Assembly: GCF_000739085.1 (NCBI RefSeq)
Contig: NZ_CP009110.1
Coordinates: forward strand, 3,782,001-3,846,000
DNA from: Amycolatopsis methanolica 239
GTDB taxonomy: Bacteria > Actinomycetota > Actinomycetes > Mycobacteriales > Pseudonocardiaceae
Reading direction: 5' to 3'
Length of the DNA: 64,000 nucleotides
Position numbers and translations under genes: made by a program. Under the pieces are notes generated by a model, which did not search any database, had not been told where the DNA came from, and saw nothing but the letters and a program-made list of their open reading frames with translations. Shown here piece by piece: positions 34,120 to 52,848 of this stretch. Numbering within the stretch: position 1 is the stretch's first letter; each line of letters begins with the position of its first letter.

Positions 34120-35331
34120 GTGGCCGACGCTCCCCTGACCGGCATCCGCGTGCTCGAACTCGGCAACTTCATCGCCGCCCCCTTCGCCACCCGCGTCTTC
34201 GCCGACTTCGGCGCCGAGGTGATCAAGGTCGAACGGCCCGGCGTCGGCGACGAGCTGCGCGGCTGGCGCCGCACCCGGGGCGGCACGTCGATGCTGTTCC
34301 GGACCATCGCGCGCAACAAGAAGTCGGTCACACTGGACCTGAAGAAGGACGAGGGCCGCGCGCTCGTCCTGGACCTGGTGCGGCAGTGCGACGTGGTGGT
34401 CGAGAACTTCCGCCCCGGCACGCTGGAACGCTGGGACCTCGGGCCGGCCGACCTCACCGCGGTGAACCCGGACCTCGTGGTCGTCCGCATCTCCGGCTAC
34501 GGGCAGACCGGCCCCTACCGCGATCGCGCCGGGTTCGGCGGCGTCGCCGAAGCCTTCGGCGGGCTGCGGCAGGTCACCGGGCACCCGGACCGTCCCCCGG
34601 TGCGGCCGGCCGCGCCGATCGCCGACGCCACCGCCGGGCTCTACGGCGTCGTCGGCGCGCTGATGTTGTTGCTGGGCAAGGCACGCGGTCTCCCCCACGA
34701 CGGCCCACGGGTCGCCGACGTCGCGCTCTACGAGTCGGTGTTCATGATGATGGAGTCGCTGATCCCGGACTTCGACGCCTACGGCGTGGTGCGCGAGCGC
34801 ACGGCCGGGAACCTGCCCGGTGTGGTGCCCAGCGGCGTCTACCCCACCGCCGACGGGCAGTCGGTCATGATCGCGGGCAACTCCAGCGGCGCGTTCGGCC
34901 GCCTGATGACCGCGGTCGGCCGCCAGGACCTGGCCGAGGACCCGGCGCTCGCCGACGGCGACGCCCGCTCCGCCCGGGAAGACGAACTCGACGCCGCCAT
35001 CACCGCGTGGACCTCGGCGCACACCGCGCCGGAGGCGGTGCGGATCCTCAACGAAGCCGGGGTGCCTGCGGGGCCGGTGCACGACGCGCGGGCCATCGCC
35101 GAGGACGAGCACTACCGCGCGCGGGACATGCTGCGCCCCCTCAAGGTCGTGGTCGAGTCCGAGCCGGAGGAGATCCGCTTCCCCGGCGTGGTGCCGCGCC
35201 TGCCGGGCGCCCCCGGCGACGTCCGGTGGGCGGGCCCGGAACTGGGCGAGCACACCGAAGCCGTGCTCGGCGGGCTGCTCGGCATCGGCGCCGACCGCCT
35301 GTCCGGCTACCGCGAGCGGAAGGTGATCTGA
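34120..35331 (+). CDS. CaiB/BaiF family (class III) CoA-transferase
   Basis: A 403-aa class III CoA-transferase. Visible features are TGIRVLELGNFIAAPFATRVFADFGAEVIKVE at the N-terminus, NKKSVTLDLKKDEGR, DVVVENFRPGTLERW, the expected catalytic Asp in APIADATAGLYGV, and SGYGQTGPYRDRAGF. It swaps CoA between carboxylic acids. Followed 1 bp later by an HMG-CoA-lyase-like gene, it probably activates a dicarboxylate such as 3-hydroxy-3-methylglutarate or citramalate. GTG 34120 has GGAGG four bases upstream. Confidence 0.9.
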   Translation: MADAPLTGIRVLELGNFIAAPFATRVFADFGAEVIKVERPGVGDELRGWRRTRGGTSMLFRTIARNKKSVTLDLKKDEGRALVLDLVRQCDVVVENFRPGTLERWDLGPADLTAVNPDLVVVRISGYGQTGPYRDRAGFGGVAEAFGGLRQVTGHPDRPPVRPAAPIADATAGLYGVVGALMLLLGKARGLPHDGPRVADVALYESVFMMMESLIPDFDAYGVVRERTAGNLPGVVPSGVYPTADGQSVMIAGNSSGAFGRLMTAVGRQDLAEDPALADGDARSAREDELDAAITAWTSAHTAPEAVRILNEAGVPAGPVHDARAIAEDEHYRARDMLRPLKVVVESEPEEIRFPGVVPRLPGAPGDVRWAGPELGEHTEAVLGGLLGIGADRLSGYRERKVI

Positions 35332-44535: not shown

Positions 44536-44554
44536 CGAAAGTGACCTTGGTCCC
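44536..44554 (-). promoter_or_regulatory. DevR/DosR-like box upstream of devR
   Basis: On the minus strand GGGACCAAGGTCACTTTCG. It matches the mycobacterial DosR box core (GGGACT..AGTCCC) at 11 of 14 positions and the box at 45760-45778 at 15 of 19. A -10-like TAGGTT lies at 44600-44605, placing the box centre near -67 of devR. Suggests autoregulation. Confidence 0.55.
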
Positions 44555-44634
44555 CGCCGGAGGTGACTTCCGCCGGGTCGCGCGCGGCCCGGTCGGCTCT
44601 AGGTTGGAGACGTCACCTGCGAAAGGGGACTGCC

Positions 44635-45309
44635 GTGATCACCGTGTTCCTGGTCGACGACCACGAGGTCGTGCGCCGTGGGGTCGCCGAGCTGCTCGGC
44701 ACCGACGCCGAACTCGAGGTCGTCGGCGAAGCCGCCACCGCCGCGCAGGCCATGGCCCGGATCCCGGCGCTCAACCCCGACGTCGCGGTGCTCGACGTGC
44801 GCCTGCCCGACGGCAACGGCATCGAACTCTGCCGTGAGCTGCGGTCGCGGATCCCCGAGCTCAACGTCCTCATCCTGACCTCCTACACCGACGAGGAGGC
44901 CATGCTCAACGCCATCCTCGCCGGCGCGGGCGGCTACGCCATCAAGGACATCGCCGGGCTACACCTGGTGTCGGCCGTCCGCGAGGTCGGCTCCGGCCGG
45001 TCCCTGCTCGACACGCGTGCCGCGTCGACCCTGATGGCCAAACTGCGGACGAACGCCGCCGACCACGGACCGCTGGCCGGCCTCACCGACCGCGAGCGCA
45101 CCCTGCTGGACCTCATCGGCGAAGGACTCACCAACGCGCAGATCGCCCAGCGCATGTTCCTCGCCGAGAAGACCATCAAGAACTACGTCTCCCGGCTGCT
45201 GGCCAAGCTCGGACTGGAACGCCGCACCCAGGCCGCCGTCCTCGCCGCCAAACTCCAGACCGGCGAGCACGCCGACGCGCCCCGGCCCGGCGCGCCCGTG
45301 GTGCGCTGA
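44635..45309 (+). CDS. devR: DevR/DosR-like response regulator
   Basis: A 224-aa NarL-type regulator very like the mycobacterial dormancy regulator DevR. The receiver has [17 protein letters not shown], phospho-Asp in [16 protein letters not shown] and Lys in [14 protein letters not shown]. The HTH ([20 protein letters not shown], then [29 protein letters not shown]) is almost the DevR sequence. DevR switches on genes under hypoxia or nitric oxide. No DevS-type kinase is encoded nearby, so it is an orphan here. GTG 44635 has GAAAGGGG upstream. The gene faces the stress and gas-vesicle cluster. Confidence 0.85.
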
Positions 45310-45330
45310 CGGCGCCACGCCGGGCAGCGG

Positions 45331-45702
45331 TCAGGGCGCGGGCACCACCGCGGCCCGCGCGATGGCCCGGCGCGCGTGGACCTTCGCGATGCGGGAGCTG
45401 ACGAGCAACACGGCCACCACGACCGCGCCCACGACCCCGGCCAGCCGGTTGACGTCGACGGCAGGCTCCCACCGCAGCGTGCCGTCCTTGATGACGTAGG
45501 CCCCGGTCGGCTTGGCGGTCAGGCCGAACCCACCGCCCTCGCCGTGCTGTCCCTCCTTGTCGACGCCGTCGCCGCCGCCGGCCCCGCTGGCGACGCTCGC
45601 CGCCGCGATCACCGTGATGCCGTCCTTCTCGTAGGGCTCGGTGTACACGAGCTTCGCACCGGCCGAGCTCTTCGCCTTCTCGATCAGCTCGTCGATCTTC
45701 AT
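45331..45702 (-). CDS. GerW/YtfJ-family sporulation-associated protein
   Basis: A 123-aa protein with the GerW-type fold: IDELIEKAKSSAGAKLVYTEPYEKDGITVIAAASVASG, a Gly-rich loop (GEGGGFGLTAKPTGAYVI) and one C-terminal membrane helix (LAGVVGAVVVAVLLVSSRI). Family members are linked to spore or cell-envelope maturation, but the biochemical role is unknown. ATG 45702 has a strong AGGAGG. A DevR-like box lies 58-76 bp upstream, so it is a probable target of the adjacent DevR. Confidence 0.75.
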   Translation of the reverse strand: MKIDELIEKAKSSAGAKLVYTEPYEKDGITVIAAASVASGAGGGDGVDKEGQHGEGGGFGLTAKPTGAYVIKDGTLRWEPAVDVNRLAGVVGAVVVAVLLVSSRIAKVHARRAIARAAVVPAP

Positions 45703-45759
45703 CGCGACCCTCCTGGAGACCTGTGGATGAAGGCATCGTGGTGCGCCCGCGGCCCCGCG

Positions 45760-45778
45760 CGGAAGTGCCGATGGTCCC
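45760..45778 (-). promoter_or_regulatory. DevR/DosR-like box upstream of the GerW-like gene
   Basis: Minus strand GGGACCATCGGCACTTCCG; 15 of 19 positions match the box upstream of devR (44536-44554), consensus GGGACCANNGNCACTTNCG. It is centred about 67 bp before the ATG at 45702, consistent with an activator site. Confidence 0.55.
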
Positions 45779-45872
45779 CGGGATTCACGACAAACGTCCG
45801 ACGCAGGCGAAGTCCGCTCACGGCAAGCGAACGGGGCGCCACGGGCAGCGGCGCCCCGTTCGCTGCACGAGG

Positions 45873-46703
45873 TCAGGCCTTCGGCCGGTCCTGCGGCATC
45901 GTCGCGCTGCCGGGCGACGACGGCGGCATCGCCGCGGTCCGTTCCTGCGGCATGGCGGTTTCGGCCGCGTGCCGCGGAGCACCCGCGCCGGCTTCCCGTT
46001 CCGCGTCCTCGCGGCCGCGGCGGTAGGCCTCGGCCCTGGTGCGGGCCGACGGGATCTCCTCCTCGGCCCGGTTGAGCCAGCGGTCCCAGCGCTGCTGCAT
46101 CGGCCGCATCAGGCCACCGCCCGCGCCGACGACCAGCACACCGCCGACGGTCGCGAGCAGCGCGATCAGCACTGGCCCGGTGACCGTGGTGGCCACGCCG
46201 ATCTGGTTCAGCGCCGCGATCACACCGAAGGCGATCACCACGACCTGCACCATCTTCGCGACCAGCGGGCCGTAGCTGAGCCCGCCCATCGCGCCGCGGA
46301 TCAGGTCGTGCAGCGCGCTGCCGACGGCGGCCGCGACGATCACGATGACGATGGCCACGATGGCGCGCGGCAGCCAGGCGACGATGGCCGCCAGGATGGC
46401 GCTGACCGGGTTCGGCCCGAACACGCCGAACGCCAGCTGCAGGGCGATCAGCAGGACCGCGTAGTAGACGAGCGCGGCCAGCAGCCCGCTCGCGTCGTAC
46501 CGGGACTGTTCCAGCGCTCGCTTGATCCCGCCGCGCTCCACGGCCCGGTCGAAACCGACCCGTTCGAGTACGACTTTGACGACCTTGCGCAACGCTTTCG
46601 CGACGAGCCAGCCGACGACCAGCACAACGAGGAATACGGCGAACTTCGGCAGGAACGTGATCACGGCTCCGACCGCGTCGTTCCAGAATTCGGTGACGTT
46701 CAT
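45873..46703 (-). CDS. MscS-like / TM-helix-repeat membrane protein
   Basis: A 276-aa membrane protein with about five helices. It opens FWNDAVGAVITFLPKFAVFL with VVLVVGWLVAKALRKVVKVV, typical of the conserved TM-helix repeat found in MscS-like channels, and has a Gly/Ala-rich pore-like helix (LIALLATVGGVLVVGAGGGLM). A cytoplasmic tail (about residues 210-276) is charged and Pro-rich with three similar MPQ/MPP segments. It lacks a full MscS beta domain, so channel activity is unproven. It sits between GerW-like and GlsB-like stress genes. Confidence 0.75.
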   Translation of the reverse strand: MNVTEFWNDAVGAVITFLPKFAVFLVVLVVGWLVAKALRKVVKVVLERVGFDRAVERGGIKRALEQSRYDASGLLAALVYYAVLLIALQLAFGVFGPNPVSAILAAIVAWLPRAIVAIVIVIVAAAVGSALHDLIRGAMGGLSYGPLVAKMVQVVVIAFGVIAALNQIGVATTVTGPVLIALLATVGGVLVVGAGGGLMRPMQQRWDRWLNRAEEEIPSARTRAEAYRRGREDAEREAGAGAPRHAAETAMPQERTAAMPPSSPGSATMPQDRPKA

Positions 46704-46786
46704 CTATCACATCCGTGAACTGAGGGGACCGGGCGCCCGGCCCGGGCCGGAAACGGTGTCCGGACCGGACCGGGCCGGGAAGGGGG

Positions 46787-47068
46787 TCAGTGCATGAGCT
46801 TGCGCCGGCGGCCGCCCCGCAGAGCCGTGGCCAGCGAGACCCCGAGGACGGCGAGCACCAGCTGGGTCAGCACTTCGAGCCAGTCGATACCGTCGGTGTC
46901 GGCGTACCCGACACCCCGGGCGATCGCGGTGCCTGCGAAGGCCGCGACGATACCGACGACGATGGTCAGCCAGATCGGGATGTTCTGCTTCCCCGGCGCG
47001 AGCAGGCGGCCGAGGACACCGATGACCAGCCCCACGAGCAAGGCACTGATGATTCCGGATATAGCCAT
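46787..47068 (-). CDS. GlsB/YeaQ/YmgE-family stress membrane protein
   Basis: A 93-aa membrane protein with three helices: GIISALLVGLVIGVLGRLLAPG, IPIWLTIVVGIVAAFAGTAI, and LEVLTQLVLAVLGVSLATAL. This is the transglycosylase-associated (GlsB/YeaQ) family, often induced by general stress. ATG 47068 is preferred over 47110 because GGAG lies just upstream. A sigma-B-type promoter at 47099-47123 precedes it. It follows gvpK by 65 bp but has its own promoter. Confidence 0.8.
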   Translation of the reverse strand: MAISGIISALLVGLVIGVLGRLLAPGKQNIPIWLTIVVGIVAAFAGTAIARGVGYADTDGIDWLEVLTQLVLAVLGVSLATALRGGRRRKLMH

Positions 47069-47098
47069 CGCAACTCCATTGTTCGGCGATGGTTCCGG

Positions 47099-47123
47099 AT
47101 TCCCGGACAATTCCCGATGAAAC
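47099..47123 (-). promoter_or_regulatory. Sigma-B-type stress promoter of the GlsB-like gene
   Basis: Reading leftwards: GTTT (47123-47120), 15-bp spacer, GGGAAT (47104-47099), then 30 bp to the ATG at 47068. It fits the general-stress sigma consensus GTTT-N14-16-GGGWAW. It sits in the 65-bp gap between gvpK and the GlsB-like gene. Confidence 0.6.
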
Positions 47124-47133
47124 CTATTTCACA

Positions 47134-47424
47134 TCAGCGCCGATCCGACAGCAACGGGCCGAGCGGGCCGAGATCGATGTTCAATTCCTCCGGGGAGACG
47201 CCGAAATGCTCGCACAGTTCCGTCATGCGCTCGTCCAGCCGCATCAGCGTCAGCCCGATCGCTTCGACCTGCTCGTCGGTGAGGTCGCCGCGGTCCACCC
47301 GGCGCAGTGCCTGTTTCTCCATCAGTTGCCGCAGCAGTTCCACCACGGTCAGCACGAGGCCGGCCAGACCGCGCTCGACGCTGTCCGGATCGGTGTCGAT
47401 GCGGCGCTTCGCGGGGTCAGTCAT
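47134..47424 (-). CDS. gvpK: Gas vesicle protein GvpK
   Basis: A 96-aa GvpK: RRIDTDPDSVERGLAGLVLTVVELLRQLMEKQALRRVD, with the later EAIGLTLMRLDERMTELCEHFG, is characteristic. GvpK is an accessory protein needed for gas-vesicle growth in several bacteria. Last gene of the gvp operon; its ATG overlaps the gvpS stop by 8 bp. Confidence 0.9.
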   Translation of the reverse strand: MTDPAKRRIDTDPDSVERGLAGLVLTVVELLRQLMEKQALRRVDRGDLTDEQVEAIGLTLMRLDERMTELCEHFGVSPEELNIDLGPLGPLLSDRR

Positions 47425-47608
47425 CGGCGGGCTGCAATGCGCTCACGGAGGACAGCAGCGTCCGCAACGAGATGTGCACGAGGTCGACGTCGGCGATGGA
47501 CAGGGTGATCTCGCCGGTCACGACGACTCCGCCGGCGAGAACCCGGTCGAGGAGGTCGACCAGCGCCACCGGCTGGTCGGCGACGGGCGCGGGAACCGGT
47601 TCGGTCAT
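47417..47608 (-). CDS. gvpS: Gas vesicle protein GvpS (GvpA/J family)
   Basis: A 63-aa member of the GvpA/J/S fold: VALVDLLDRVLAGGVVVTGEITLSIADVDLVHISLRTLLSSV, the helix-strand-strand-helix of shell-type proteins but without the extended tail of GvpJ. Likely a minor shell or tip component. ATG 47608 is chosen from the family start; its start overlaps the gvpL stop. Confidence 0.85.
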   Translation of the reverse strand: MTEPVPAPVADQPVALVDLLDRVLAGGVVVTGEITLSIADVDLVHISLRTLLSSVSALQPADD

Positions 47609-48369
47609 GTTTCCTCCAAGGACGAGAACGAGTACGGCGGCCACGGCCCGGTGAGCTGCACCCGGATCGCCGGGCTCTCGTCGTCGCAGGCCGCCACCGC
47701 CTCGGCGAAGGCGCGCGCGTCGTCGTCGCCGACAAGGTAGGCGGCGTTGAGCACCATCTGCCGGTCGTCACCGGACAACGCCTTGCTCTGCAACGGGTGC
47801 AGGCGCGCGCCGGCGGCCAGCGCCGCGAGTCTGGAGTGGACCTTCGCGGCCTGCTCGCGTGCGAGCCGTTCGGATTCCGCGCGCGCGTCGCGTTCCGCCC
47901 GGCGCCGGGCGAGGTACGCCGTCCCGGCCCCCCGGCGGGACGGTGTCTCCTCGCGCCCGGGCGGCGGCTCTCCGGCGAAGACCTTGACGCCCCACTCGGT
48001 CCGCCCGGCGACGCGGTCCAGGGTACGCGCCAGCTCGTGCCCGCGGTGTTCGAGGACGCGGCGCACGCCGTGCTCGTCGCGGTACACGGTGGCCAGCCGC
48101 ACCGGCACGACCGGACCGGCGCCGGCGAGGGCACCGACCACGGCATCGTGCGCGCGGGCCACGGCGCCGAGCCAGTCCAGGTCCTCCAGGTTGCGGTGCA
48201 GGGCCTCCTCGCCGAACGTCTCCAGTGGAACGTCGCCGACGACCGCCGCCAGCCTGCCGGCCTCCACCGTGCGCAGCACTTCCCCGGCGACGCCGGGCAG
48301 TTCGCCTGCCGCGCCGGCGCCCTCCCGCCGGGTCACGGCGTAGAGCCAGATCCCGCTGTCCTCAGTCAC
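47605..48369 (-). CDS. gvpL: Gas vesicle protein GvpL (GvpL/F family)
   Basis: A 254-aa GvpL/F protein: N-terminal IWLYAVTRREGAGAAGELPG, AHDAVVGALAGAGPVVPVRLATVY in the middle, and WGVKVFAGEPP before a long helical region rich in Arg/Ala. It ends LTGPWPPYSFSSLEE, the conserved GPWPPYSF motif of the family. Two GvpL/F copies occur in this cluster (also 49278-50042); they probably nucleate or chaperone shell assembly. GTG start at 48369 overlaps gvpJ by 8 bp. Confidence 0.9.
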   Translation of the reverse strand: MTEDSGIWLYAVTRREGAGAAGELPGVAGEVLRTVEAGRLAAVVGDVPLETFGEEALHRNLEDLDWLGAVARAHDAVVGALAGAGPVVPVRLATVYRDEHGVRRVLEHRGHELARTLDRVAGRTEWGVKVFAGEPPPGREETPSRRGAGTAYLARRRAERDARAESERLAREQAAKVHSRLAALAAGARLHPLQSKALSGDDRQMVLNAAYLVGDDDARAFAEAVAACDDESPAIRVQLTGPWPPYSFSSLEET

Positions 48370-48718
48370 GGTGCCGGTCCTCGATCACGGCGCGGTCTTC
48401 CGCGCCCTCCAGCTCCTCGACGCGGGCACGCAGCTCGCGGTTCTCCCGCTGCAGCCGGGTGGTGTCGCCGGAGAGCCACGGATCGCTTTCCCACCAGTTG
48501 ATCCCGACCTCGCGCGCGGTCTCCAGCGAGGCGATCACCAGCCGCAGCTTGATGGTCAGCAGTTCGATGTCGAGCAGGTTGACCCTGATGTCCCCGGCGA
48601 TCACCAGCCCCTTGTCGAGCACTCTCTCGAGGATGTCCCCCAGGTTGGCGGGCTGGTGGTTGCCGAGCGCAGGGGACCCGCCTCCGCCCGGCGTGGTGGC
48701 CGGCTGCCCAGTCGCCAT
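48362..48718 (-). CDS. gvpJ: Gas vesicle protein GvpJ
   Basis: A 118-aa protein with the GvpA-like core (NLGDILERVLDKGLVIAGDIRVNLLDIELLTIKLRLVIASLETA) and a charged coiled C-terminal tail (QRENRELRARVEELEGAEDR). The GvpA core plus tail is typical of GvpJ, a tip/nucleation protein. ATG 48718 begins one base after the gvpO stop codon region. Confidence 0.85.
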   Translation of the reverse strand: MATGQPATTPGGGGSPALGNHQPANLGDILERVLDKGLVIAGDIRVNLLDIELLTIKLRLVIASLETAREVGINWWESDPWLSGDTTRLQRENRELRARVEELEGAEDRAVIEDRHRD

Positions 48719-48719
48719 G

Positions 48720-49022
48720 TCAGGACACCCCGCTTCCGCTGTCGGCCCGGCCGCGGACATATCGCTTGGTGCGCCGGTAGGCGAGCAGCTCACCGTCCAC
48801 GCCGAGTTCCAGCTCGTAGAGGGCGAGCATGTCGGCCGAGGACGGGATGCGCCGGTCCTCCAGCACTTCGAGCTCGACGAGCCAGCCGTCGTCGGTGGGT
48901 TCGACCGAGGTGACCGACACCGGGTTCCGGCTGATCAGCTCGCCGGCGTGGGCAAGCGCCCGCGACGCCGCTTCCGGGGCGGACAGCGCGCCGTCCCCTC
49001 CGGCCTCATCGCGTGGAGCCAC
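48720..49022 (-). CDS. gvpO: Gas vesicle protein GvpO
   Basis: A 100-aa GvpO: GWLVELEVLEDRRIPSSADMLALYELELGVDGELLAYRRTKRYVRG is the diagnostic C-terminal domain. GvpO is required for vesicle production in haloarchaea and found in actinomycete clusters. In Streptomyces gvpO usually precedes gvpA; here it lies after gvpG, so the order is rearranged. Confidence 0.9.
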   Translation of the reverse strand: MAPRDEAGGDGALSAPEAASRALAHAGELISRNPVSVTSVEPTDDGWLVELEVLEDRRIPSSADMLALYELELGVDGELLAYRRTKRYVRGRADSGSGVS

Positions 49023-49028
49023 TGGCGA

Positions 49029-49274
49029 TCACCTCTCCTTCTCGTCGGTCTCCGTCATGTCGAGCCGCCGCAGGACCTGCTGCTGGACCTCGGCCTCCTC
49101 CTCGGGCGAGATCTCCCCGGCCGCGCGTTTCTCCTCCGCCGCTTCGAGTTCGCGGCGGATCGACGCGGGCGCGGCGATCTCCTCGTTGACCCGGCGCTGG
49201 ATCAGCTCACCGAGCTGAATCACGCCGCAGACCGGCAGCAGCGGGAAGCCCAGGATCCCGGACAGCAGGCCCAT
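49029..49274 (-). CDS. gvpG: Gas vesicle protein GvpG
   Basis: An 81-aa GvpG: MGLLSGILGFPLLPVCGVIQ then LGELIQRRVNEEIAAPASIR, followed by an acidic helix (EEKRAAGEISPEEEAEVQQQ). The opening GFPLLPV and the ELIQ region are characteristic. Accessory protein acting in vesicle assembly. Starts 3 bp after the gvpF stop. Confidence 0.9.
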   Translation of the reverse strand: MGLLSGILGFPLLPVCGVIQLGELIQRRVNEEIAAPASIRRELEAAEEKRAAGEISPEEEAEVQQQVLRRLDMTETDEKER

Positions 49275-49277
49275 CGG

Positions 49278-50042
49278 CTACGCCTCCGGCCGTTGTGTCA
49301 CAACGAAATCGTAGGCCGCGAGCGGACCCAGCAGGCGCACCTCGGCGCGGCCCGACCAGTCCCGCGCGACGCGGTCGACGGCTTCCTCCAGATCGGACTG
49401 CTTGGCCGTCTCGACGAGGCACGCGAGGTGCACCGCGTCCTCTTCGTGCGTCGGCTCGCGCGGGGCGATCTGGGCGCCGGTCCCGGCGATCGCGTCGGCG
49501 ACCCGCTTGGTGTCGGCCTCGCGCCGGGCGGCGATCGCATTGCCGATCCTCTCGCCCAGCGCGATCCGCTCGTTGCGCGTGGCGTCCGCGGGCTTCCCGC
49601 GGATCGCCTCGCGCAGCTGGGCGAGCTGCTCGTCGGACTCGAGGATCTCGCGGAGGATGGTCTCCTCCACGTAGCGCGCCTTGACGACGTACTGCGCCTT
49701 GCCCTCCAGCTCATCCAGTGCCGCGACGAAGTCGTCCTGGTTGGCTTCGAGCAGTTCGGTGCGCACGGCGTCCTCGTCGGTGACCACGGCGCCGAACCGC
49801 AACGGCAGCACCGGCACCTCGGCGGCGGCCGCGTCGAGCAGCGCCGCGTGCGCGGTGAGGTCCTCGGGCCGCCCGAGCGGCTTGTCCCTCGGCACCTCGC
49901 TCACCAGCGCCGCGATCCGGTCGTGCTTGACCGCGCGGACCTCGGCGGGCGGGTCGCCGACGCCGCGGGCCTCCGGGTCGGTCTCCACGTCGGACGGCAC
50001 GATGCCGTACACGTAGACCACGGTCTCGCGCTCCTCGGTCAT
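49278..50042 (-). CDS. gvpF: Gas vesicle protein GvpF (GvpL/F family)
   Basis: A 254-aa Gvp[22 protein letters not shown] at the N-terminus, [23 protein letters not shown], the long central helix with [17 protein letters not shown], and the C-terminal [13 protein letters not shown]. GvpF is the protein that contacts GvpA early in assembly. ATG 50042 overlaps the gvpA stop (ATGA), coupling shell and chaperone synthesis. Confidence 0.9.
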
Positions 50043-50437
50043 CGCCCGCCGCCCTTCCGGCGCCCGGCGCGGTCCGTCTCCTCGTTGCCGCCGAGGAGGT
50101 CCTGCAGCTTGTCACCGGCGGCTTCGAGTGCTCCCCGGGTCTTCGCCTTGGCGCCGCCGGAGGTCACGTCCTCCAGCAGGTCCGGCAGGCCCTTCTGTTC
50201 GGTGTCGGAGATGTCGAGCCGGTTCACCGCCTCCGCGAACCGCAGGTAGGTGTCCACGCTCGCGATCACGACCCGTGCGTCGATGGTCAGCAGTTCGATC
50301 CCGACCAGCGACACGCGCACGTAGGCGTCCAGGACGAGTCCCTTGTCCAGGATCGTGTCGATCACGTCCGCGAGGCTGCTGGAGGTGGGCCGGTCCAGGC
50401 CCCCGCCGCCGCCCGATGGCTGCACCGCTGTCGTCAT
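50039..50437 (-). CDS. gvpA: Gas vesicle structural protein GvpA
   Basis: A 132-aa shell protein. The GvpA core is [56 protein letters not shown], matching the helix-strand-strand-helix rib monomer. The chain is longer than the usual ~70-aa GvpA, with a Gly-rich N-terminal leader and a roughly 55-residue basic tail ([20 protein letters not shown] ...), as in Streptomyces-type GvpA proteins. ATG 50437 overlaps the gvpZ stop. It is the only GvpA-type main shell gene in the cluster. Confidence 0.9.
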
Positions 50438-51438
50438 CGCCTGCTCCCCCGTCCTCTGCCCGCCGACGCCCGGGCGCGTGTACGTCGCGCCGGCGGTTCC
50501 TCGGCCTCTTCTTCGGGTTCTTCCTCGTCGGGCGCCTCGGCCTCGTCGGCCTCGGGTTCCTCGGGTTCTTCCTCGTTCCCGGGTTCCTCGTCGCTGTCCT
50601 GGACCTCGCCGTCGTGGATCTCGCCGCGCCAGCCCTCGACGTCGTCCGGGTGCAGGATCGCCTCGGTCATCACGTACCGCTGGAAGTGCTTGAGCTCCAG
50701 CCGCGCGCGCCGTCCCTGGGCCCGCCAGATGTTGCCGGTGCGCTCGAACAGCCCCTGCGGGTGGTACTCCAGCACCAGCACGACGCGGGTCAGGTCCGGG
50801 GTCAGCTCGTGGAAGGTCACCGCGCCGTCGACGTGCCCCTTCTCGCCCTTGGACCGCCACACGATGCGCTCGTTGGGGACCTGTTCGAGGATCGTGGACT
50901 CCCACGTGCGGCGCGACCAGAAGATCTGCGCCTTCCACGTCAGCGTCTCGTCGCTTGTCTGGTCGACGTACTCGACCTTCTTCATGAAGCGCGGGAACTC
51001 GGTGAAGCGGGTCCACAGGTCGTAGACCAGGTCGATCGGGGCGCCGATGTCGGCCTGCTCGACGATGTTGGTGACCTTGAGCTTGCCGCCCCCGCCGCCG
51101 CCGACGGAGTCCTTCACCTTGTCCGCGAGCCCGGACAGCCCGCCCTTGACCGCGCCCATCATGGCCTTGCCCTTGACGCTGGGCTTGCCGCCGGTGACGG
51201 CTTCGATCAGGCCGCCACCGCCGCCACCCGAGGCGTAGTCCTGGAGGCGGCCGGAGGTCGAGGTGATCCGGTTGGCCAGCGAGGTCGAGGCGCGGGTGGT
51301 GACCGCGCCGGCCAGTTTGCGCAGGGCTTCGGTCAGCTCGGTGGACGGCTTCGGGACGGCGTCGGCCACGCCGGAGACGGTGTCGGTGGCCGCGCCGGTG
51401 GCCTTGTCGAGGGTCTTCTTGATCTGGCCGGTCGCCAT
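50434..51438 (-). CDS. gvpZ: GvpZ-like SRPBCC protein of the gas-vesicle cluster
   Basis: A 334-aa protein. Residues about 1-120 are low-complexity with Gly runs. Residues about 125-265 form an SRPBCC/START-like cyclase domain ([34 protein letters not shown]; later [21 protein letters not shown]). The tail is an acidic block ([19 protein letters not shown]) followed by a basic one ([17 protein letters not shown]). The position and domain match gvpZ of Streptomyces gvp clusters, whose role is unknown. ATG 51438 is chosen; the gene sits 6 bp after gvpY. Confidence 0.8.
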
Positions 51439-51443
51439 GGCGC

Positions 51444-52025
51444 TCACCTCCGCGCCCGGCGGACCGGGGTGCGGGCGGCGGCCGCCCGGCCGGTGCGGCG
51501 CGCCCGGGTCGGAGCGGGCTCTTCGCCTTCGTCCTCGTCCTCGAGCTCGGGTTCCCGTTCGGCCCGGCGGCGCCGAGTGGCGGTGCGGCGGGCGCGCGCT
51601 GGTGGCGCGGGCTCCTCTTCTGGCTCCTCCTGGGCCTCTTCGTCCTCTTCTGGCGCTTCTTCGGACCGGTCCTCGGTCTCCTCGTCGGTCTCCTCGGGCT
51701 CCTCTTCGGCGCCCTCGTCCCCGGACGCGCGCTTCGCACCGTCCTGGAGACGTTCGCTGAGCGACTCGATGCGCTGCGAGGCCGCCGTCACCGCGGCCGC
51801 CTTCGCCGCGCTCAGCAACTGGTCGCGGGCGACGTCGGTCAGTTTCGTCAGCTCCGCGGACGAGCCGAGCTGGCTCAGGCCGTTCTGGAGCAGCTTCCCC
51901 GGGGTGACGCCGGTCTTGCCGGTCGCCCCCGCGGCCGCGATCATCAGCGCCAGGCGCATCTTCTTCGTGCGGCCCAGTAGGTAGCCGAGCCCGACACCGA
52001 GGGCGACACGCGATCCTGCCTTCAT
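51444..52025 (-). CDS. gvpY: GvpY-like protein, first gene of the gvp operon
   Basis: A 193-aa protein. The N-terminus has a short hydrophobic [21 protein letters not shown] segment, then a helical Ala-rich part with [22 protein letters not shown]. From about residue 100 it becomes an acidic block ([20 protein letters not shown] and on) alternating with Arg-rich blocks ([22 protein letters not shown]). The position before the SRPBCC gene and the length fit gvpY of Streptomyces. ATG 52025 has AGGAGGA eight bases upstream. The sigma-B-type promoter is about 100 bp before the ATG. Confidence 0.75.
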
Positions 52026-52124
52026 TCGTAAGTCCTCCTGACTCCGGCGATTGGCGAGTCCTGCCGACAACCCACGCGCCACCCCCCGAACTCATCGGGG
52101 CGAGCAGGATGTACCGGGCGAGAA

Positions 52125-52150
52125 CTACCCTGCGGCCCCACCGGAAAAAC
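52125..52150 (-). promoter_or_regulatory. Sigma-B-type promoter of the gas-vesicle operon
   Basis: Reading leftwards: GTTT (52150-52147), 16-bp spacer, GGGTAG (52130-52125). This fits the actinobacterial general-stress sigma consensus GTTT-N14-16-GGGTA. The expected start is near 52115, leaving about 90 bp of 5' leader before gvpY at 52025. The rest of the 292-bp gap (52026-52317) holds an -10-like TATACT at about 52280 for the HTH gene on the other strand. Confidence 0.65.
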
Positions 52151-52317: not shown

Positions 52318-52848
52318 ATGGGTGACGAAACGAGTACCGATAGCGAGGGAACCGAGAGTGGATCCGCTGTCACCGGAACCGCGGCGAAGTTGCTTTCGGC
52401 TGCCCGCGCGCGGCGGCGACTGTCGCAACGGGAACTGGCGCGCCTGGCCGGCGTGCCGCAGTCGACGGTGGCGACGATCGAGGCCGGGCGCCGTCAGCCG
52501 TCGGTCGCGATGCTGGAACGCCTCCTGCGCGCCGCGGGGTTCCACCTGGCCACCGAACTCGTGAACGCGCTGCGCCCGAGCGAACTCCTGGAGCGGCAGC
52601 GCCGGAACGTCACCGAGGTCCTCGCGCGGTCCCCGGTCACACGCGCGTGGCTGACCGGCCCCGCCGCCCGCGGCGAGGACCGCCCTGACTCCGGCCTCGA
52701 CCTGGCGGTGGAGCTACGCCCTGGCACGGCGGCTGGCGCGGTCGCCGGGCTGGCCGGCGAACTGTCCGGGCTGCTCGGCTGCCCGGTCGCCGTCACGACC
52801 GGCGACCCGGGCGGTGCAGACGACTTCTTCTACACGCGCAGCGGTTAG
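52318..52848 (+). CDS. XRE-type HTH protein fused to a degenerate MNT domain
   Basis: A 176-aa protein. Residues about 20-85 are an XRE helix-turn-helix (ARARRRLSQRELARLAGVPQSTVATIEAGRRQPSVAMLERLL). Residues about 110-176 look like a minimal nucleotidyltransferase (LTGPAARGEDRPDSGLDLAVELR). The usual GS at the start is GP, and the first catalytic Asp of the D-x-D is Gly (SGLDL), so it probably cannot transfer nucleotides. It may be a regulator using the fold for binding. It is divergent from the gvp operon and could control it. ATG 52318. Confidence 0.7.
   Translation: MGDETSTDSEGTESGSAVTGTAAKLLSAARARRRLSQRELARLAGVPQSTVATIEAGRRQPSVAMLERLLRAAGFHLATELVNALRPSELLERQRRNVTEVLARSPVTRAWLTGPAARGEDRPDSGLDLAVELRPGTAAGAVAGLAGELSGLLGCPVAVTTGDPGGADDFFYTRSG

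Follow-up and report, generated by a model that had tools for sequence, protein, structure and literature searches.

In a 64-kb window of the Amycolatopsis methanolica 239 genome (the window is the whole stretch analyzed; the genome is a single contig of 7.24 Mb, 7,237,391 bases), genes for a DevR-like response regulator and a small GerW-like protein lie beside a ten-gene gas-vesicle (gvp) operon. The initial annotation of this stretch read the adjacency as a single hypoxia/stress program, in which DevR and a stress sigma factor control the gas vesicles, gerW and the neighboring membrane proteins together. The reading that we consider fairly probable is that the locus holds two neighboring units under separate control, with no indication that DevR controls the gas vesicles. 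Regulation is read throughout from the sequence; what the analysis shows is the gene content, the conserved sites and their positions, and a linkage that is limited by lineage.

The sites ahead of the gvp operon point to a stress sigma factor. We searched with a strict motif (GTTT-N14-16-GGGTA) and a general one (GTTT or GNNT, a spacer, and GGG[TA]A), the SigB consensus being taken from passages of PMC8346170. Both sigma-B-type promoters named in the initial annotation are in place on the minus strand and kept in relatives: GTTT-N16-GGGTAG at 52125-52150, the promoter of the gvp operon, is the sole strict match on either strand of the 64 kb, and GTTT-N15-GGGAAT at 47099-47123, upstream of a gene for a small hydrophobic protein, is one of three relaxed matches. 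We tried 46 gvp loci, of which 41 were usable (the other five had no detectable first gene), and the strict motif lies upstream of gvp in 17 of the 41, compared with a mean of 0.08 and a maximum of 2 after base shuffling. These 17 loci come from Amycolatopsis or same-genus genomes, Saccharomonospora, Actinophytocola and one Nocardiopsaceae metagenome-assembled genome; among the usable loci, the motif was not seen in those of Rhodococcus, Nocardia, Gordonia, Sphaerisporangium, Prauserella or Actinospica. The 47099 promoter recurs in six of the seven relatives compared (L029, L030, L104 and L106, and as GGGTAT in L031 and L038; L-numbers denote fetched loci and G-numbers genomes), and was not seen at the corresponding place in the seventh, L035. 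Because the promoter is conserved, two sigma factors in the genome exceed the SigB/F/G family cut-off, and Streptomyces coelicolor provides a precedent, transcription of the gvp operon probably depends on a stress sigma factor. Passages of the S. coelicolor literature already describe its gvp operon as SigB-controlled (PMC5733086) and as induced by salt or heat (PMC5733086, PMC5839063, PMC2687793), so stress-sigma control of gas vesicles is not new.

DevR boxes were scored with a matrix of OsdR sites from PMC5069765 Table 1, built first from 18 and then from all 25 distinct sites, with unchanged conclusions. Whereas the stress-sigma motif precedes gvp in 17 usable loci, a DevR box (matrix score ≥8) was found upstream of gvp in 0 of the 41, our own window included, and the operon thus lacks the upstream box by which we would assign it to a DevR regulon. 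This zero represents lack of support rather than depletion, because about one box is expected by chance (permuted matrices gave means of 1.07-1.29, and 59 of 200 permutations were also zero). The two boxes of the window lie elsewhere: box A (44536-44554, minus strand) precedes devR (44635..45309, plus strand), and box B (45760..45778, minus strand) precedes the convergent gerW-like gene (45331..45702, minus strand). Both are about 60 to 95 bases ahead of the start codon, box B at about 60-77 bases from that of gerW. A perfect 15-nt inverted repeat (45826..45864, minus strand; folding z -4.28) separates gerW from the channel-like gene msc; it is a likely transcription barrier, although without a clear U-run, and a similar hairpin element is readable in L104, L107 and L108. 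DevR control of the gvp operon, sought ahead of the first gene in these loci, is among the readings rejected. Because both boxes sit in transcription units other than gvp, the initial annotation's step from adjacency to control is not supported; of its combined program, the stress-sigma part is supported at gvp, and the DevR part is not.

The regulator itself was correctly recognized in that annotation, and its alignment identifies it as a true DevR homologue. It scores 315.7 bits against Mycobacterium tuberculosis DevR (3c3w), with residues 1-210 aligned gap-free, and Asp54, Lys104 and the KT[IV] helix are kept; we take these three features to have functional roles in the regulator. Receiver (Response_reg) and GerE domains, the strong DevR match, Asp54 and the recognition helix together place it in the DevR/DosR family. 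No kinase gene adjoins it. A second devR copy, 83% identical, lies elsewhere in the same genome in a dormancy-type locus (L100/L101, G000:C1:3500000-3529999, where G000 is the A. methanolica genome itself), which also holds genes for a universal stress protein, a DevS/DosT-type kinase and a nitroreductase, as well as several high-scoring DevR boxes. The kinase, of GAF-GAF-HisKA_3 architecture, has its gene some 3 kb away from this devR copy; it scores 226.2 bits to 2vzw and 209.5 bits to DevS 2y8h, and keeps the HPPM histidine. We take 2vzw to be the DosT heme domain and the HPPM histidine to be a heme ligand. From this arrangement we infer that the dormancy-locus kinase may serve the DevR of the window.

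How far the two boxes can be trusted is a separate matter. The box pattern of the initial annotation has only two exact matches in 7,237,391 bases, both in the window and both on the minus strand, but this count is circular because the pattern was built from those same two sites. The view that the boxes are chance matches, so that DevR has no particular tie to the locus and the cluster amounts to a simple stress island under sigma-B, is unlikely in our judgment, yet several results favor it, some of which also weigh against our own reading. With up to two mismatches allowed, the pattern gives 16 matches against 43 for a reversed control pattern. The devR box taken alone is weak with the OsdR matrix, at rank 17 (score 6.1) in the 25-site version and rank 20 in the 18-site version. 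The gerW box ranks first in the window in both versions (11.7 with 25 sites), but two sites outside promoters rival it, at 34500 (11.6) and at 50178 inside gvpA (11.1).

Conservation is stronger support for the boxes than matrix score. Box A forms, with a second element, a tandem pair spaced 22 bp (base pairs), a pattern that spans 44541-44568 (minus strand) and occurs once in the 64 kb. In a test of devR upstream regions (33 loci out of 62 response-regulator matches), an equal tandem pair precedes the orthologues in L199, L200, L202 and L203 and also the 83% paralogue (L002), which speaks against chance. L104 has exact copies of both boxes. In L107 the devR box is likewise exact, whereas the gerW box carries a single base change there and survives although another gene replaces the DNA upstream, with the border of the unrelated DNA at the box. 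In L108 the devR box differs by one base. Boxes of this type also recur at some unlinked gerW genes, as described below. The two boxes proposed in the initial annotation are thus both present and kept in relatives, and both devR and gerW are probably under DevR control; the window gerW, with a promoter-position box conserved in close relatives, carries a predicted regulon site.

The single program of the initial annotation appears to us still less probable than a chance origin of the boxes. It draws on the four genomes in which devR and gvp adjoin each other (our own, G064, G146 and G162), and on two points that count against separate units: the matrix match inside gvpA, and the co-occurrence of gerW and GvpK in 36 of the 200 family genomes surveyed, where about 24 are expected (Fisher p 2.6e-4, with kinship and genome size ignored). 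It also draws on S. coelicolor, in which the gvp operon is induced by heat shock along with the nitrate reductase operon (reported in passages of PMC2687793), the latter being a predicted OsdR target (listed in PMC5069765 Table 1). These heat-shock data speak for co-induction, which is conceivable in the window too, rather than for shared binding sites. Opposed to a single program are the placement of the boxes ahead of devR and gerW, the hairpin that divides the units, and the unboxed gvp upstream regions, the last a weak argument alone with about one box expected. The main text of the OsdR paper contains no gvp or vesicle term. In the devR tree, the window gene groups with five others (branch support 100/99 for this clade of six), among them the orthologues of G130, a genome in which a GvpK match was not found, and of G113, where devR lies among universal-stress and nitroreductase genes. 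The five other gvp loci fetched at genus level (L105, L106, L109, L110 and L111) all lack devR beside gvp, although a different regulator with a 34% match lies some 6 kb away in L110, and the distance between gerW and gvpK is 20 kb or less in only three of the 36 genomes that hold both. As judged from these surveys, the neighborhood of devR and gerW with gvp is not old and is limited to a few close relatives.

An indirect action of DevR on the gas vesicles, for instance through a site within gvpA or through higher levels of a SigB-type sigma factor, is very improbable: the matrix match at 50178-50193, exact in L107 and one base off in L104 and L108, would fit intragenic DevR binding and counts against our reading, but it lies in coding sequence, and the protein may explain its conservation.

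In the two-unit arrangement that we favor, the Streptomyces-type gvp operon would be transcribed leftward from its sigma-B-type promoter, and the hydrophobic and channel-like genes would have their own sigma-B-type promoter, with transcription ending at the strong hairpin. The second unit would be governed by an orphan DevR, presumably phosphorylated by the DevS/DosT-type kinase of the distant dormancy-type locus as its putative partner. This DevR would bind the tandem boxes of its own promoter and the box ahead of gerW, and may activate both genes in response to low oxygen. The two units would have been brought together within a small Amycolatopsis group.

The remainder of the locus that holds interest is the DevR-GerW pair, which is a new lead. 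The GerW-like label of the initial annotation is borderline: against Spore_YtfJ, the protein scores 24.7 bits with one extra residue and 25.1 bits without it, at a cut-off of 25, and it has no NCBIfam match at E 0.1 and no related solved structure at E 1. Its membrane association is suggested by a hydrophobic C-terminal stretch read by eye. Among the literature matches listed, none links GerW/YtfJ with DevR/DosR, and none, by title and start of abstract, has GerW with gas vesicles as its subject; by title and start of abstract, nothing was found on gas vesicles with Amycolatopsis.

We surveyed gerW genes more widely, examining 50 of 69 gerW places (the 19 omitted were the weakest), and tested 47 unlinked gerW upstream regions of the family. 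A DevR-type box (score ≥8) lies at -100 to -45 in 6 of the 47, compared with permuted-matrix means of 0.49 (18 sites) or 0.71 (25 sites), and 0 of 300 permutations reached this count in either version. In a wider window (-160 to -17), the counts are 6 or 7 of 47 against 1.23 or 1.48, reached in 1 of 300 permutations each. Within the family, a fixed M. tuberculosis-type half-site ranks first of 20 letter orders in the narrow window (13 of 47, mean 4.9) and ties for first in the wide one.

Against DevR control of gerW as a wider pattern stand several features of the same survey. The -100 to -45 window was set after the first matches had been seen. The 47 genes are not fully independent or exact, because some share a genome and the start codon is unclear in four. 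With a threshold of 6, the wide window and 25 sites, the count of 7 against 3.53 is not significant (36 of 300 permutations), and 40 or 41 of the 47 genes stay below score 8. Outside the family there was no enrichment, with boxes at 2 of 28 usable genes (29 loci), and the M. tuberculosis-type half-site ranked only 5th and 3rd of the 20 letter orders there. On balance, DevR control of gerW in part of the Pseudonocardiaceae is likely but unproven.

The surroundings of several gerW genes recall the dormancy-type locus. In L115, gerW has a box of 14.1 at -80 and lies directly behind universal stress protein (usp) and nitroreductase genes, the arrangement of G113. In L128, the box scores 11.4 at -74; devR and nitroreductase genes follow at a distance of about 14-15 kb, and a usp gene at about 21 kb, which is the arrangement of G026. 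The gerW gene of L122 has no box of its own, but follows a same-strand nitroreductase gene with two strong boxes upstream (13.3 and 11.7); L120 has a nitroreductase neighbor, and in L170, from another family, gerW sits without a box between two usp genes. We suggest tentatively, as a possibility somewhat short of even, that in some Pseudonocardiaceae the GerW-like membrane-associated protein serves the DevR hypoxia regulon as an effector, in usp/nitroreductase/devR neighborhoods, and that in a few Amycolatopsis, gerW and an extra devR became an autoregulated pair beside a stress-sigma gvp island. Separately, a boxed gerW in L229 (G026:C32:722000-741000) lies near genes that by eye resemble those for cytochrome bd oxidase and hydrogenase maturation (HypF).

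The gvp operon runs on the minus strand from 52025 down to 47134 as one series of ten genes, the number given in the initial annotation. Eight belong to Pfam gvp families: gvpA, the structural protein gene (50039..50437; NF006872, 163.7 bits, cut-off 151), gvpF (49278..50042) and gvpL (47605..48369), both of the GvpL/GvpF family, gvpG (49029..49274), gvpO (48720..49022), gvpK (47134..47424), and the GvpA-type gvpJ (48362..48718) and gvpS (47417..47608), whose letters are set by gene order, since the NCBIfam models for both score below cut-off. The other two are the first gene of the operon (51444..52025), which has no Pfam family, and a gene for an SRPBCC/polyketide-cyclase-type protein (50434..51438); both are kept with the cluster in relatives. 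With GvpA-, F/L-, G-, K- and O-family genes in a single run on a single strand, the cluster is of Streptomyces type. The full set of ten can be detected in 29 of 40 GvpF-fetched loci, several of which are ended by contig boundaries, and GvpK is present in 77 of the 200 family genomes. By GvpF identity, the named relatives nearest at the gvp locus are Amycolatopsis tucumanensis (96%) and A. deserti (90%). The window thus holds a gas-vesicle gene cluster of ordinary soil-bacterium type.

Behind the gvp genes, the two membrane-protein labels of the initial annotation fared less well. At a limit of E 0.001, the msc product (45873..46703, minus strand) has the PF05552 transmembrane (TM) helix as its sole Pfam match; an MscS beta domain was not found, and the NCBIfam msc model gives 43.3 bits at a cut-off of 100; the protein is channel-like to that extent. 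The small hydrophobic protein (46787..47068, minus strand) stays below every family cut-off (Transgly_assoc 15.2 bits, cut-off 25.3; PRK10457 31.7 bits, cut-off 129), and GlsB-like is a weak label for it. In L107 (8233-10083, genome G146), msc and gerW are separated by an additional 1.8 kb or so of DNA that looks esterase-like by eye and is found at the same place in A. tucumanensis (L029). On the other side, divergent from the gvp operon, a gene at 52318-52848 encodes an N-terminal helix-turn-helix protein with a weak C-terminal match to an MntA-type nucleotidyltransferase antitoxin (25.5 bits, cut-off 60).

It is instructive to compare the locus with known systems. The window resembles SCO6499-SCO6508 of S. 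coelicolor, which is under SigB, in its gvp gene set and stress-sigma promoter. We presume that gvpK is also part of the S. coelicolor gvp set. Passages of PMC5839063 list the genes there as O A F G Y Z J L S, of which Y and Z may correspond to the SRPBCC-type gene and the first gene of the window operon, and mention two gvp clusters in S. coelicolor, compared with one GvpK match in the A. methanolica genome. The next gene by number, SCO6509, is described in a passage of PMC8346170 as a 'hydrophobic protein' with a SigB/SigM-dependent promoter, and by position and description it may be likened to the hydrophobic gene of the window. The gene order differs, with two genes preceding gvpA in the window and the devR-gerW pair alongside. 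The regulator resembles M. tuberculosis DevR/DosR and S. coelicolor OsdR in its receiver and LuxR-type domains, its key residues, its own-promoter boxes and a DevS/DosT-type kinase elsewhere in the genome; it differs in having no neighboring kinase gene, in lying beside gerW, and in having its 83% copy in the dormancy-type locus. The GerW-like protein resembles the GerW/YtfJ (Spore_YtfJ) family by its borderline Pfam match, and differs in its upstream DevR-type box and in its actinomycete host, which is not an endospore former.

On the question of why soil actinomycetes retain gas-vesicle genes, the present evidence points toward general stress control of the cluster in Amycolatopsis too. Control of gas vesicles by oxygen-dependent dormancy gains no support, which narrows the possible tests, and the poorly understood GerW-like proteins of actinobacteria gain a testable setting, low-oxygen dormancy.

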